Below are positions 30,299 through 38,215 of a stretch of 64,000 bases of DNA, piece by piece; position 1 is the first letter of the stretch; each line of letters starts with the position of its first letter. Source of the stretch: Candidatus Hydrogenedentota bacterium (GTDB lineage Bacteria > Hydrogenedentota > Hydrogenedentia > Hydrogenedentales > JAGMZX01). The translations under genes and the position numbers were made by a program. The notes below the pieces were generated by a model. That model saw only the letters and a program-made list of their open reading frames with translations. It made no database searches and had not been told where the DNA came from. Location of the stretch: positions 7,131 through 71,130 of the forward strand of contig JAKQEQ010000038.1 in NCBI GenBank assembly GCA_029556545.1. Reading direction: 5' to 3'.

Positions 30299-30327
30299 TT
30301 GCGGAAAAACACCAAATGGCGTATGCT
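30299..30327 (+). promoter_or_regulatory. Probable promoter of the large secreted protein
   Basis: TTGCGG, 17-bp spacer, TATGCT, 52 bp before the ATG at 30380, in the gap divergent to the HNH gene. Confidence 0.45.
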
Positions 30328-30379
30328 GGATACGGAACGAAGAGCAACTAACGTGCGCTCAAGAAAGGGGTATGCGACC

Positions 30380-33300
30380 ATGAAAGCCATCGGTGCATCC
30401 AAAGGGGAAGTGTCAACCAAGCGTTTCCACAACATCCTGCTTGCCAACCCCATTGCCGTCTCCCTCCTATGGGGACTGGCGGGGGCCGTCGCCGTCATGC
30501 CGGGTATCGCATACGCCGACAGCCCGCCGGCCGCGCCGTGCGAGAACAACATCGTGCTCGACGGGGGTTTTGAACTCGGCCATCCGAACCCCCACTGGGC
30601 GGAATTCTTTGATCCCGGCTTTACGGAACAATTGATCACAAATGACTCGCTGCTGGCACATTCGGGGGACTGGTTCGCGAACCTCGGCGGATCGGCCGAG
30701 GGTGACGACCTGATGTTGCAGCAGGAGGGCTTGATCCTACCCTACGGCGCGTCCGCGACGCTGCGGTTCCAGTTGCGGGTATTCCCGGACTGGTTCTCGG
30801 CGCCGCTGGTCGTGAAATTGGACGATTCCGTCGTGTACACATTGAATCCGGCGGACTCGGAGCCGTACTGGGCGGGTTATGCGCCGGTTGTTGTAGACCT
30901 GTCGTACCTTGCGGACGGCGTGTCTCGGGCCTTGTCCTTCTCGACGTGGGCGGCTGGCGGGTATACGCCGGCCGTGTACATTGACGACGTGTGCCTCGAC
31001 GTGATCGGGCCGGAGACCTGCCCGCTGAACAGCCTGTGGTCGCAACCCCCGATGGGCGCGCTTCCGTGGACGAGTGACGCCCAGTCGGACCGGGCGCTCG
31101 CGGACAACTTCTTCAGCCTGAACGGCCCGATCTATGACGTGCACTGGTGGGGCTACTACACGGGCGACGCGCCGGCGCCGTGTGTGCGGAACCCGAACGA
31201 GTATCGGATCGTATTCTACGAAAACAACGCAGGGGAGCCGGGTGCGCAGGTGGCGGAATACACGGTGACGCCGACGGTGACGGACACCGGCATGGTCTTG
31301 CCGGAACTGGGCTTGTCCCTGATGCGCCATGACACGGTGCTCGATCCGCCCCTGGCGCTTGAAAACGGCTGGGTGTCGATCAGCGGCATCGGCGATGCCT
31401 CGGGCTGTGAGTTCCTTCCCGCATCGTCGAACATGGACGGCGTCCTGCGCTATATCACATCGGAAGGCGTGGAGATGGAGCCGGATATTGACGCGGCATG
31501 GTGCCTGACGTGGGACGCCGCGGAGGGCGAAGGCGAGGGAGAAGGAGAAGGAGAAGGAGAAGGAGAAGGGGAAGGCGAAGGCGAAGGGGAGAGCATGTGC
31601 GCAGACTTCGACGACCTTGTCCTGATGACCGAGTACCACGTCGGCGACACCTTCACTACGCAGGGCTATACCTTTGAATGCAAGGAGTTCTTCTGGCTCC
31701 CGAGCGGCAGCACGACCACCGGCTTCGCTATCGTCGAGGCGACTAACCTTGCCGGCGGGTCCGGTTATGAGATGATGATCAATAACATCAACGTGGAGAT
31801 TGCGTTTTTCGGTCCCGCCCCCGCGCCGTGCGTCCGCTTCCGGTATGGCGAGTATGGCGGCAACCTCAACCTCGAGGTCAACGGCGATTTCAGAAACTTC
31901 GACAACTTCGCCGACATCCACGGGACCATCGTCGGCGACGTGGCCGTCGTGGTTATCCCCACGGGTGACAGCACCGGCATCGTCGAACTCCGCGGCTGGG
32001 TGTCTACACTCAAGCTCGGCGGCCAGGAATTTTACATCGACGACCTGTGCCCCTTCTGCGAGGGCGGCGAAGGCGAGGGCGAAGGCGAGTGCGCCACCTT
32101 CGACGACCTCGTGCTGATGACCGAGTACCACGTAAGCGACATGTTCGCAACGCAAGGGTACACCTTCGTGTGCAAGGAGTTCTTCTGGCTCCCGACCGGC
32201 AGCACGACCAGCGGAACCGCCATCGTCGAGGCGGCGGGGCTTTCGGGTGGCTCGGGCTACGAAATGATGCTCGGCAACATCAACGTGGAAATCAGCTTTG
32301 TCGGCGCGCCCACGCCGGAGTGCCTCAGCTTCCGATATGGCGAGTACGGCGGCAACATCAACCTCGAAGTTAACGGCGATTTCAAGAACTTCGAGGACTT
32401 TGCCGACATCCACGGAACCGACATCGGCGGCGTGCCCGTCGTGGTCATCTCGACAGGCGAGAACACCGGCATCGTCGAACTCCGCGGGCCGGTCTGGCAA
32501 ATGAAAGTCGGCGGCCAGGAGTTCTATATCGACGATGTCTGCCCCTTCTGCGAGGGCGGCGAGGGCGAAGGTGAAGGGGAGGGAGAAGGCGAAGGGGAAG
32601 GCGAGGGCGAGGGGGAAGGCGAGGGTGAGGGCGAGATCCCGAACTGCGCGGGGAACCTCGTCCGTGACCCAGGGTTCGAGTTAGGAACTCCCAATCCCTA
32701 TTGGGTCGAGGAAATCAGCCCCGATTTCGGCGAACCCATCATTCGTTCCTCGTGCGGGAACAGCGGCAACTACTGCGCCTGGCTGGGGCTGTCGGGCGCA
32801 ATCGAGAGCATTCCCGCCGGCATCTATCAGCAGATCACGATTCCCGCCTCGTCCGCGGCCACGCTGCGTTTCCTGCTCAAGATAAGCGGCGGGAATCCGG
32901 GTTCGGAAGGGGAGGTTCCGCCGGACCTCATCAATTTCAAGGTGCGCATCGACAGCACCATCGTGTTCGCCCTGGACGAGGTGATGGAGCCGTATGCGTC
33001 CGGCTACGCGCCGGTCACGGTCGACATCTCCGCGTTTGCGGACGGCGGGTCGCACGTGCTGCGGTTCTCAACAGTACAACTCGCGGACTACGACGCCGAC
33101 CCGAGCATTGACGAGGTCTGCGTGCAGGTCCTGGGGGCCGGCGGATTCAACGCGGACCAGAACAAAGACTGGAAGATCAATCTGGTCGAGTTGCTGCGGG
33201 TGATCCAGTTCTATAACTCGGACGGCTTCCATTGCCTCCCCGGCACGGAAGACGACTACGCCCCCGGCCCAGGTGACCGCACCTGCGGGTTCCACGCCAG

Positions 33301-33433
33301 CGACTACAATCCCCCGGACTGGCGCATCGGCCTCACCGAGTTGCTGCGCTTGATCCAGTTCTACAACTCCGGCGGGTTCCGTTGGTGCCCCGATCAGGGC
33401 ACGGAAGACGGCTTCTGCCCCGGCCCGGCGTAA
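30380..33433 (+). CDS. Large secreted modular protein with Glu-Gly linkers and dockerin-like C-terminus
   Basis: 1017 aa from the ATG at 30380 (AAAGGGG upstream). Order of parts: signal peptide (about 1-47); a jelly-roll-like module opening N-I-V-L-D-G-G-F-E-L-G; a middle domain; a Glu-Gly linker; module A1; a short Glu-Gly linker; module A2 (near-identical to A1, each about 155 aa, starting F-D-D-L-V-L-M-T-E-Y-H-V); a long Glu-Gly linker; a second jelly-roll-like module (N-L-V-R-D-P-G-F-E-L-G); and a duplicated dockerin-like tail with two copies of E-L-L-R-x-I-Q-F-Y-N-S-x-G-F, each preceded by Asp/Asn-rich loops. It is exported, probably surface-attached or carbohydrate-binding. Partners are unknown. 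Confidence 0.8.
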   Translation: MKAIGASKGEVSTKRFHNILLANPIAVSLLWGLAGAVAVMPGIAYADSPPAAPCENNIVLDGGFELGHPNPHWAEFFDPGFTEQLITNDSLLAHSGDWFANLGGSAEGDDLMLQQEGLILPYGASATLRFQLRVFPDWFSAPLVVKLDDSVVYTLNPADSEPYWAGYAPVVVDLSYLADGVSRALSFSTWAAGGYTPAVYIDDVCLDVIGPETCPLNSLWSQPPMGALPWTSDAQSDRALADNFFSLNGPIYDVHWWGYYTGDAPAPCVRNPNEYRIVFYENNAGEPGAQVAEYTVTPTVTDTGMVLPELGLSLMRHDTVLDPPLALENGWVSISGIGDASGCEFLPASSNMDGVLRYITSEGVEMEPDIDAAWCLTWDAAEGEGEGEGEGEGEGEGEGEGEGESMCADFDDLVLMTEYHVGDTFTTQGYTFECKEFFWLPSGSTTTGFAIVEATNLAGGSGYEMMINNINVEIAFFGPAPAPCVRFRYGEYGGNLNLEVNGDFRNFDNFADIHGTIVGDVAVVVIPTGDSTGIVELRGWVSTLKLGGQEFYIDDLCPFCEGGEGEGEGECATFDDLVLMTEYHVSDMFATQGYTFVCKEFFWLPTGSTTSGTAIVEAAGLSGGSGYEMMLGNINVEISFVGAPTPECLSFRYGEYGGNINLEVNGDFKNFEDFADIHGTDIGGVPVVVISTGENTGIVELRGPVWQMKVGGQEFYIDDVCPFCEGGEGEGEGEGEGEGEGEGEGEGEGEGEIPNCAGNLVRDPGFELGTPNPYWVEEISPDFGEPIIRSSCGNSGNYCAWLGLSGAIESIPAGIYQQITIPASSAATLRFLLKISGGNPGSEGEVPPDLINFKVRIDSTIVFALDEVMEPYASGYAPVTVDISAFADGGSHVLRFSTVQLADYDADPSIDEVCVQVLGAGGFNADQNKDWKINLVELLRVIQFYNSDGFHCLPGTEDDYAPGPGDRTCGFHASDYNPPDWRIGLTELLRLIQFYNSGGFRWCPDQGTEDGFCPGPA

Positions 33434-35812: not shown

Positions 35813-36655
35813 TCATGCCTCGGCGCGCAGCGCCGCGCCCACTTTCTCCGCCATTCTGTCCATTTCCTCGCGCCAGTCGGCGCAGAGTTCGAGGGCGGCT
35901 TCGAGGTGTTTGCGCGCGGCGGCCGCGTCGCATTCGAGGTGGCGGGCGAGCAGCGGCGCGCCGAGGCGGAGCATGTACTCGCGGTCCTGCATCAGTTGGA
36001 CGGCGAACGCCTGCATGAGCGCCTTGTGCGCGCGGAAGGCCCAGCGCAGCGCGCTCTCGGCGTCTTCCGCGGAGAGTTCGGGGACCCGTTCCGCGAGGGG
36101 CGCGGCGAAGGCGTCCACGATGGCCTGTTCCTCTTTCGGGCCGACGCTGCGCGCGGCGTCGCGGATCAATCGTCCCAATTCCGGCCCGCATTCGAGCCCG
36201 ACCCGCATGTCCATCGCCGCTTCGAACACGTCTTCGGCCAGGTTCAGGGAGAGCCCCGTCCGCGCGCTCAGCGCCTTGATCTTCCGCGTCGCGTAGTATG
36301 TCGCATCGACGTCGTTGGGGTAATGATGGGCGTAATGGTCCGCGCCCCAGACGCCGTTATGGGTCGCGAAACCGGTCGCGAACGACGACGGGGCCAGGCG
36401 CTCGAATTCGTAGTGGGTCAGGCGCTTGATGGCCGCGTCGACGGTCGGGCGGAGGCGCGCCGCGCCGTTGAAGTCCGGCAAGGTAGCCCCGAAGACGGCT
36501 TCGAGCGCCTCGGGCCCCAGGACGCGCGCGACGACGTAGGCGTGCATGGCGGGTCCCCAGGCGACGGCCGGCGCCGCCGCGATCAGCAGCACCACCGTGA
36601 GCGCCGCGATACCCGCGCGCGCCGGGTATGTCCCGGCTACGCCACGTGCCGCCAC
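35813..36655 (-). CDS. Zinc-dependent phospholipase C-like protein, exported
   Basis: 280 aa from the GTG at 36655, with GAGGAG five bases upstream. A signal peptide (IAALTVVLLIAAAPAVA) ends just before W-G-P-A-M-H, where the N-terminal Trp and His would be zinc ligands once the peptide is removed, as in bacterial PLC/S1-P1-type enzymes. Further His/Asp residues follow in LPDFNG, LTHYEF, FATHNGVWGADHYAHHYPND. The helical remainder fits. Cleaves phospholipid head groups or phosphodiesters by inference. Its 5' end, including the ribosome site, abuts the truncated ORF6N copy, so its original promoter may have been lost. Confidence 0.72.
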   Translation of the reverse strand: MAARGVAGTYPARAGIAALTVVLLIAAAPAVAWGPAMHAYVVARVLGPEALEAVFGATLPDFNGAARLRPTVDAAIKRLTHYEFERLAPSSFATGFATHNGVWGADHYAHHYPNDVDATYYATRKIKALSARTGLSLNLAEDVFEAAMDMRVGLECGPELGRLIRDAARSVGPKEEQAIVDAFAAPLAERVPELSAEDAESALRWAFRAHKALMQAFAVQLMQDREYMLRLGAPLLARHLECDAAAARKHLEAALELCADWREEMDRMAEKVGAALRAEA

Positions 36656-36834
36656 TGGGTCTCCTCGACGACGGCACGCCTGCTGCGCAAGACGCTCGAC
36701 AGCATGGCCACACCCTGTTCCGTGAAGGCGTAGGGCAGGTGCTTCCGATGCTGTCCGCGACCTGTCTTTAAGGTCACAATTTGTGACCTTAAAGCCTCGG
36801 CCTCCTCTTCCGTCAGTCGGAACGTGAAATCCAC
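36637..36834 (-). pseudogene. Truncated ORF6N-domain gene copy
   Basis: 65 codons open from a GTG. The first 53 align with the central part of the complete ORF6N protein just upstream (TFRLTEEEAEALRSQIVTL...[19 protein letters not shown]), then similarity ends abruptly at R-R-A-V. The first 40 or so residues of the domain and the entire C-terminal coiled coil are missing. It lies six bases after the stop of the complete copy, so it is a tandem partial duplication. Its 27-nt palindrome is kept. Confidence 0.8.
36767..36793. repeat. 27-nt perfect palindrome in the truncated ORF6N copy
   Basis: TTTAAGGTCACAA, a central T, then its exact complement. Core TCACA-ATT-TGTGA. On the coding strand it specifies L-R-S-Q-I-V-T-L. 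Confidence 0.9.
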
Positions 36835-36840
36835 ACATCT

Positions 36841-37374
36841 TCACCGTTCCTTGCTTGCGGCGAAGCCGATGGCGCTTCGGCTCTTGGGCGCGGGCGGGCT
36901 CATGAGTTGCCGGATGGCGTCGAAGACGGCTTTGAACTGGGCGTCGTACTTCTTTTCGAGATTGGCGAGTTTTTCGGCCAGGTCGGCGTGAGATGTGAGT
37001 AATTGGCGCAGTCGGACAAAGGCGCGCATGATTTCGACGTTGACCAGCACGGCGCGCTTGCTGCGTAGAACGCTCGACAGCATGGCCACACCCTGTTCCG
37101 TGAAGGCGTAGGGCAGATAGCGCCGACCGCCGCGCCGCGCCGCGTTTGAGGTCACAATTTGTGACCTCAAAGACTCGGCCTCCTCTTCCGTCAGTTGGAA
37201 CATGAAGTCTTCCGGAAACCGCTCGATATTCCGTTTGACCGCCTGGTTAAGCGTCTTCACCGCAACCTGATACAGCGCCGCCAAGTCCGAGTCCAGCATC
37301 ACCTTCTGGCCTCGGATGAAGACTATCCGCGACTCGATCCGCTCCAGGGGAACAGGGGACTTGTCATTCGCCAT
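36841..37374 (-). CDS. ORF6N (KilA-N-like) DNA-binding domain protein
   Basis: 177 aa. Residues 8-100 are the ORF6N domain: [20 protein letters not shown]-x-L-Y, V-K-x-L-N-Q-A-V-K-R-N, R-F-P-x-D-F-M-F-Q-L-T, then [19 protein letters not shown]-terminal coiled coil follows ([16 protein letters not shown]). Such proteins come from phages and mobile islands and probably bind DNA; targets are unknown. AAGGAAT lies before the ATG. A 27-nt palindrome inside the gene and a similar one 30 bp upstream share the core TCACA-ATN-TGTGA, suggesting self-regulation. It lies directly behind an ABC transporter unit that lacks its permease. Confidence 0.87.
37145..37171. repeat. 27-nt perfect palindrome inside the complete ORF6N gene
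   Basis: TTTGAGGTCACAA, a central T, then its exact complement. It differs from the truncated copy by one base in each arm, and the two changes compensate, keeping the palindrome. Core TCACA-ATT-TGTGA. Confidence 0.9.
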
Positions 37375-37404
37375 AGCCGAATTCCTTCAGATTCGCCCAA
37401 CTTA

Positions 37405-37423
37405 AAATCACAATCTGTGATTT
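37405..37423. promoter_or_regulatory. Palindromic operator candidate upstream of the ORF6N gene
   Basis: AAATCACA-ATC-TGTGATTT, 30 bp before the ATG. It shares the core and 3-base spacing of the palindromes inside both ORF6N copies, so one dimeric protein could bind all three. Confidence 0.6.
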
Positions 37424-37477
37424 CATCATCCAGGCCATCCTGCAAGACAGTCGCCATCAGCAACCCCGCGCGGTCGT

Positions 37478-38215
37478 TCATGGCGCGGCCTCGATGCGCC
37501 GCTGGCGTTCGAGGAAGCTCTCGACGAACGGGGTCGCGGGCCGGCGGAGCACCTCGTCCGGCGTTCCGACTTGATGGACCTCGCCGACTTTCATGACGGC
37601 GATGCGGTCCGCGAGCGCCAGGGCCTCTTCCTGGTCGTGGGTGACGTAGACCGCGGTGATCTTGAGGCGGTGCTGGAGGTCGGCGAGTTGCGCGCGCGTG
37701 GCGTGGCGCAATTCCGCGTCGAGGTTGCTCAGCGGCTCGTCGAGCAGCAGGATGGCCGGGCGCACCGCGAGCGCGCGCGCGAGGGCGACGCGCTGCTGCT
37801 GCCCGCCGCTCAACTCGGTGACGCGCCGCTTCTCCATGCCGTCGAGTTGCACGTAGCCGAGGGCCTCGGCGACGCGCTTGGGAATCTCGCGCTTCGGCAT
37901 GCGGCGCGCGCGCAGGCCGAACGCCACGTTCTCGAAGACGTTCATGTGGGGAAACAGCGCGTAGCTCTGGAAGACCATCGCCGCGTTGCGCGTCTCGGGC
38001 GGCGTATGGGTCACGTCGCGGTCATCGAAGAAAACCGCGCCGCTGTCGGGCGTTTCGAGGCCCGCAATCAGCCGGAGCGTCGTCGTCTTGCCGCAGCCGC
38101 TCGGCCCGAGCAGCGCGAAGAACTCGCCCTGCGCGATGGCGCAGCTCAACCCGCGCACGCCGCCCTGATTGCCGGGGTACAGTTTCGTGATCGCTTCGCA
38201 TCGGACGCTGCTCAT
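37478..38215 (-). CDS. ABC transporter ATP-binding protein (PotA/FbpC-like importer)
   Basis: 245 aa from the ATG at 38215. Walker A GPSGCGKTT, Q-loop MVFQSYALFPHMN, signature LSGGQQQR, Walker B ILLLDEPLSNLD and H-loop VTHDQEEA are intact; this is the spermidine/iron/molybdate-importer ATPase group. It stops right after the start of the regulatory region, shorter than MalK. The ATG overlaps the binding-protein stop (ATGA). An ATGA at its own stop (37481) opens a 52-codon frame that may be the beginning of the lost permease gene, running into the ORF6N upstream region. Confidence 0.92.
   Translation of the reverse strand: MSSVRCEAITKLYPGNQGGVRGLSCAIAQGEFFALLGPSGCGKTTTLRLIAGLETPDSGAVFFDDRDVTHTPPETRNAAMVFQSYALFPHMNVFENVAFGLRARRMPKREIPKRVAEALGYVQLDGMEKRRVTELSGGQQQRVALARALAVRPAILLLDEPLSNLDAELRHATRAQLADLQHRLKITAVYVTHDQEEALALADRIAVMKVGEVHQVGTPDEVLRRPATPFVESFLERQRRIEAAP

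Follow-up and report, generated by a model that had tools for sequence, protein, structure and literature searches.

A palindrome conserved inside ORF6N genes, a predicted cognate operator of the encoded protein

Palindromic DNA that is translated in frame is represented by the Rickettsia palindromic elements, which are dispersed in unrelated genes. Repressor sites may also lie within transcribed regions: those of PurR at purB, GalR and ArsR are downstream of the start and can stop elongating RNA polymerase (cited in PMC10310618). For MerR, Rex and NrtR, the bases of the operator are correlated with recognition-helix residues 1, 2 and 6 (PMC5045206).

The ORF6N family (PF10543) is assigned to the KilA-N/Bro-N group of phage antirepressors; the proteins are ORF6N by their profile match and have a predicted helix-turn-helix DNA-binding N-terminal domain. 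The genes analysed here differ in being mostly stand-alone chromosomal genes rather than phage antirepressors. They are patchy and spread across phyla, being present in 117 of 395 sampled genomes of Bacteroidota (about 30%) and in about 25% of the sampled Desulfobacterota genomes. A phage context was not characteristic, since five phage records were matched, compared with the 117/395 Bacteroidota genomes; two scans of viral contigs with distant ORF6N queries yielded 0 and 2 loci. On plasmid pTS1 of Treponema saccharophilum (L282), an ORF6N gene is located between methyltransferase and specificity-subunit genes, in an apparent type I restriction-modification locus, and is adjoined by another winged helix-turn-helix gene.

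ORF6N genes and palindromes of the window

The window, i.e., the whole stretch of DNA analysed (64,000 nt), carries a complete ORF6N gene and a truncated tandem copy (Table 1). The complete gene scores 128.3 bits against PF10543 (gathering score 27.8), and its product is predicted to bind DNA by a winged helix-turn-helix and to have a coiled coil at the C-terminus; the recognition helix is missing from the truncated copy. The first-pass annotation had reported a perfect 27-nt palindrome in both copies. Both palindromes are indeed perfect, but that of the truncated copy extends over 29 nt. They differ, as had been described, by one compensated base per arm (TTTGAGG/CCTCAAA in one and TTTAAGG/CCTTAAA in the other; pair 10 from the centre), and the third palindrome with the same core, noted upstream of the gene, is present. 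The palindrome of the complete gene is the predicted cognate operator of the protein that this gene encodes.

Table 1. Coordinates of ORF6N-related features in the window
Feature	Position	Strand	Details
Complete ORF6N gene	36841-37374	-	177 aa; Pfam PF10543, E 1.4e-37
Truncated tandem ORF6N copy	36637-36834	-	65-aa ORF; PF10543 positions 42-86, E 3.9e-13
Intragenic palindrome TTTGAGGTCACAA-T-TTGTGACCTCAAA	37145-37171	.	27 nt, perfect; centre 37158; codons 69-77 of the complete ORF6N gene
Palindrome CTTTAAGGTCACAA-T-TTGTGACCTTAAAG in the truncated ORF6N copy	36766-36794	.	29 nt, perfect
Predicted recognition helix	37231-37260	-	Codons 39-48 of the complete ORF6N gene; covariation and AlphaFold2 model
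Upstream palindrome AAATCACA-ATC-TGTGATTT	37405-37423	.	19 nt; shares the core; 31 nt from its edge to the start codon

The motif TCACANNNTGTGA (TCACA-N3-TGTGA) occurs three times in the window, against 0.02 expected. A pattern search of the whole 6.1-Mb genome identified it exactly four times, three times inside ORF6N genes and once upstream of an ORF6N gene. The fourth occurrence is inside the only other ORF6N gene of this genome, whose palindrome is perfectly compensated but different (AGGTGGTCACAA/TTGTGACCACCT).

Relative to a genome of the same genus, the window ORF6N copies constitute a 0.8-0.9-kb insertion between ordinary genes: the locus corresponding to 36569-37500 of the window in genome G040 (L278) is devoid of both copies and of the upstream palindrome. 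Neither an integrase nor a clear border repeat, fixed border or target-site duplication was found for this insertion, and promoter, terminator and tRNA scans of the ORF6N locus found none. Elsewhere in the window, a 1044-aa ORF (30299-33433, strand +) contains runs of Gly-Glu repeats between domains.

In the AlphaFold2 model of the complete ORF6N protein (mean pLDDT 78.6), helices 28-35 and 39-48 form a helix-turn-helix in which 39-48 is the second helix, and strands 58-60 and 89-92 flank a loop. Residues 69-77 run into this low-confidence loop between the two strands, at the place of the wing. By prediction, the protein has a helix-turn-helix fold with a recognition helix. The best Foldseek matches were weak (the Ski/Dachshund DNA-binding fold, E 0.07, followed by MarR/MerR), and a search for a solved ORF6N structure found none. 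The palindromic site, together with a predicted coiled coil (residues 106-142), suggests that the protein is a dimer. Neither the profile search nor the model revealed a visible nuclease or recombinase domain in the small ORF6N proteins.

Conservation of the intragenic palindrome and its recognition code

ORF6N genes were gathered from the phylum of the window, 80 loci from very many phyla, viral contigs, multi-copy genomes, Bacteroidota and Desulfobacterota. A palindrome with compensated arms was present in 211 of the 211 genes analysed, from many phyla, but the discovery part of this set was restricted to genes scoring at least 9 pairs (2 of 165 were thereby left out) and regions too broken for the placing of flanking protein anchors were left unscored. 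All 11 pairs were formed in 116 genes, 10 in 78, 9 in 16 and 8 in one. The arms vary widely yet stay complementary (GGTCACAA, GGTCGCAA, GATCACAA, AGTCGCAA, GGTGCCAA, GGTTCCAA and others), and the centre is located 87 nt from codon 44 in 177/209 genes.

Of 125 related genes, 116 have a best centre around which 10 or 11 of the 11 positions are paired, a level reached in 0.33% of draws by synonymous recoding; 104 of the 125 genes outscore all 200 of their synonymous recodings. Most genes translate the palindrome as LRSQIVTS, and 15 translate it one frame over, as VVTNCDHL, with the same recognition code; in the latter, an indel in the protein leaves the DNA palindrome in place. It is also found in members that are 31-50% identical (plasmids of Legionella, Segatella, Treponema, Butyrivibrio and Sulfuricurvum). 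The synonymous recoding and the second reading frame rule out codon or protein constraint alone as the cause. Comparison of the genes shows that the palindrome is maintained by selection at the DNA level, in agreement with the earlier proposal that its symmetry exceeds the need of the protein. When checked against the codon expectation over many ORF6N genes, the two arms compensate each other and do not vary independently.

Several genes depart from the common arrangement. Two tandem palindromes or palindrome-like repeats occur within the wing loop of L101/L149, L063, L098, L119, L052, L025 and L268; those of L101/L149 have unlike arms, as if the operator had been duplicated inside the coding sequence. 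Broken ORF6N copies can retain the palindrome, and the ORF6N gene of L239, with a stop codon at residue 44, still has a perfect palindrome of the Gln type.

Mutual information was computed between palindrome pairs and protein columns. Outside the stretch encoded by the palindrome, covariation with pairs 4, 5 and 7 was strongest at helix positions 40, 41, 44 and 45, which fall in the modelled helix 39-48. Residue 44 lies in what is predicted to be the recognition helix, outside the codons covered by the palindrome, and its identity predicts pair 4 as follows: (i) Gln, A:T (101/101); (ii) Glu, G:C (47/48); (iii) Lys, C:G (19/19); (iv) Arg, C:G (34/39, the looser case; 53/58 when Lys and Arg are pooled); and (v) Leu, T:A (1/1). 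One distant Lys44 gene (L290) violates this rule. The rule was fixed before the genes of Bacteroidota and Desulfobacterota were looked at, and it was correct in 48 of 49 of these held-out genes, the 50th having a stop at codon 44. Both the covariation and the held-out genes indicate that helix residues specify operator bases. Contacts of glutamine with adenine, glutamate with cytosine, and arginine or lysine with guanine are textbook ones, and the rules for pair 4 match them.

Other positions follow similar rules. Lys40 is accompanied by G:C at pair 7 in 125/125 genes, and other residues at position 40 mostly by A:T. Arg48 occurs with C:G at pair 3 in 206/206, whereas four cases of Asn or Ser48 differ; Asn, Ser or His at this position (Asn or His in distant members) is found with A at pair 3. 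Pair 5 is T:A with Lys44 and mostly G:C with Arg44, while pair 10 is G:C with Gly-Arg at residues 83/85 and A:T with Lys85, and the wing may read the outer arm of the palindrome. The window gene obeys the code (Gln44 with A:T at pair 4, Lys40 with G:C at pair 7, Arg48 with C:G at pair 3), and its Lys40, Thr41, Gln44 and Arg48 are predicted to read pairs 7, 5, 4 and 3. Wing residue 74 follows helix residue 44 (Q44-V74 in 88/89, E44-A74 in 46/47, K/R44-G74 in 50/57), and wing residue 75 follows helix residue 40 (K40-T75 in 112/116; mostly I75 with other residues at 40). We regard this wing-helix covariation as a by-product that arises via the palindrome DNA.

As to INDEPENDENCE and cis-pairing, a tree from which the helix and palindrome columns had been excluded shows 67 changes in the class of residue 44 and 67 in pair 4, and the supported independent pairs were all in step (7/7, 5/5 and 4/4). 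Several specificities coexist in 17 genomes; of the 62 genes there, 59 matched the palindrome of their own ORF, compared with a mean of 27 and a maximum of 44 matches when palindromes were shuffled among paralogs within these genomes, so each paralog has a private site. With a palindrome in 211/211 genes, and one of the gene's own type in 59/62 genes of the mixed genomes, the cognate site is placed inside the ORF of its reader.

ORF6N-type sites outside the reading frames

A search of 21 genomes (77 Mb) with a 25-nt consensus, allowing up to 3 mismatches, identified 42 sites, and a control pattern 0. These comprise (i) 27 sites inside ORF6N genes, (ii) 12 within 135 nt upstream, (iii) 2 downstream, and (iv) 1 intergenic site without ORF6N, so that 41 of 42 are in, or at most 270 bp from, an ORF6N gene. 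With the exception of the intergenic site, no wider regulon was found in the 21 genomes. A near-perfect intergenic palindrome of the ORF6N type was observed at L264:2753-2777, in a 6-kb stretch from which an ORF6N gene is absent.

Upstream palindromes, non-coding where present, accompany 30 of 206 ORF6N genes (15%) and are absent from the other 85%; they occur in 2/503 control windows and are thus enriched. The earlier expectation of a shared core upstream of other ORF6N genes therefore holds in part, but the sites are not specific to the adjacent gene: at pair 4, 17 of 44 match its specificity, with 15.0 expected, and their role as self-operators is not supported. Nor do they match resident paralogs better than at random, which speaks against these as their readers. 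An exception is found in genome G084, where the upstream site of L180 is identical over 25 positions to the internal palindrome of its paralog L158, which points to cross-regulation or to copying of the site. The idea that upstream palindromes are left over from ORF6N genes that decayed was rejected, the flanks being not ORF6N-like in nearly all cases; one real remnant is located at -331 of L102. The upstream site of the window has A:T at pair 7, which breaks the Lys40 to G:C rule, and so it is probably distinct from the internal operator; it belongs to the same class of site but is predicted to be non-cognate to the neighbouring gene.

In L177, L009, L027, L152 and L237, a single gene is preceded by an array of ORF6N-type palindromes, two to four in number and differing from one another, the four of L177 being located at -120, -96, -69 and -36. 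The predicted specificities in these arrays mostly differ from that of the gene itself. Cross-control by other ORF6N proteins is a possible role of upstream sites.

Proposed role of the palindrome and comparison with known systems

We consider it probable that the product of every ORF6N gene is a dimeric protein of the winged helix-turn-helix type and that the gene itself contains the operator of this protein, likely serving negative autoregulation. Judging by the covariation of the arms and the residue-to-base code, it is almost certain that the coding sequence of ORF6N includes a cognate operator and that the encoded protein binds to this operator as double-stranded DNA. This operator would be the 25-27-bp palindrome over codons 69-77, which encode the flexible wing loop; helix residues 40, 41, 44 and 48 would read pairs 7, 5, 4 and 3 in both half-sites of the duplex, and wing residues near 81-85 appear to read outer pairs 10-13. 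Upon a change of a helix residue both arms would follow, even forcing an amino acid change in the wing (V/A/G at 74, T/I at 75). From the sequence comparisons we infer that a dimer bound about 200 bp inside its own gene would block elongating RNA polymerase, and repression by such a roadblock is the likely use of the operator. With the operator inside the gene, site and reader cannot be parted by transfer to another host, and this linkage fits the patchy spread of ORF6N and the empty site in the same-genus genome. A counterpoint is that upstream sites, the ordinary place for an autoregulator, are lacking in 85% of genes and are not self-specific. Moreover, if the only sites of the protein are in its own gene, the benefit to the cell or the element is left unexplained.

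The intragenic palindrome could be bound by ORF6N protein for another purpose. A selfish gene might mark itself in this way, so as to control its copy number, exclude copies of the same type or compete with other ORF6N elements, or the site might serve for loading in recombination or homing. The near confinement of sites to ORF6N genes, the patchy distribution with the window copy as an insertion missing in the same-genus genome, the upstream arrays with sites of foreign specificity (the four different palindromes of L177) and the retention of palindromes by broken copies are all consistent with this. However, the proteins are small and without a visible nuclease or recombinase domain, neither a target-site duplication nor a fixed border was found, and upstream sites match resident paralogs only at the random level, and we regard this alternative as unlikely. 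Somewhat less doubtful, but still tentative, is the view that ORF6N genes are self-addressed elements, the only genomic target of each protein being its own gene and sites flanking other ORF6N genes. If so, very many mutually orthogonal protein-operator pairs would be controlling, excluding or competing with one another, with reader and address moving between phyla in one indivisible ORF.

The first-pass annotation had proposed an operator or an RNA hairpin built into the coding sequence. Perfect arms in a transcribed region, with compensated changes, would also be given by an RNA stem controlling translation or mRNA decay. Against such a hairpin, mismatches on the coding strand in the 211-gene set are not biased towards G.T (37) over A.C (53), the symmetry of many arms extends up to a single central nucleotide and leaves too little room for an RNA loop, the base pairs are set by residues 40, 44 and 48 in classic major-groove pairings, and an Rfam search gave no match above chance. 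The operator is the part of that proposal strongly supported by the covariation and the code, and an mRNA hairpin has a negligible probability. Hardly more credible is a DNA hairpin or cruciform recognised by its structure, or a mobile palindromic repeat (of the REP or Rickettsia palindromic element type) that landed in ORF6N. Complementarity is kept while the arms vary at several pairs, and extra copies do occur near the genes, some of which contain two (L101, L063, L098 and L119); but the protein dictates base identity, copies are not scattered over unrelated genes (41/42 sites in the 21 genomes are at ORF6N genes, and 4/4 in the genome of the window), and the position is fixed at 87 nt from codon 44.

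Under the cognate operator reading, a domain that is very common but uncharacterised acquires a function that can be tested, and its code (Gln-A, Glu-C, Arg/Lys-G) is an unusually clean natural DNA-recognition code. Since reader and site are in the same sequence, the gene alone suffices to tell the specificity of a member, and the family provides a large natural collection of orthogonal regulator-operator pairs. Here the DNA site of a protein would determine amino acids in a loop of that protein, and contact-prediction methods would misread such DNA-driven residue covariation as physical contact.

No description of an intragenic cognate operator or recognition code of ORF6N was found in the literature searched, nor any text with GTCACAATTTGTGAC or GTCACAAATTGTGAC. 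The palindrome shares translation in frame with the Rickettsia palindromic elements, but stays at one position in one family. With the roadblock repressors PurR, GalR and ArsR (PMC10310618) it shares a repressor site in a transcribed or coding region; these are single cases, whereas in ORF6N, a large family, practically all members would have the operator within the ORF of the regulator itself, where it coevolves base by base with the recognition helix. As in MerR, Rex and NrtR, helix residues 2 (K40) and 6 (Q44) correlate with bases, but the operators of those regulators are separate, while the ORF6N reader and its site occupy one ORF, with an agreement of 87-100% depending on the residue.
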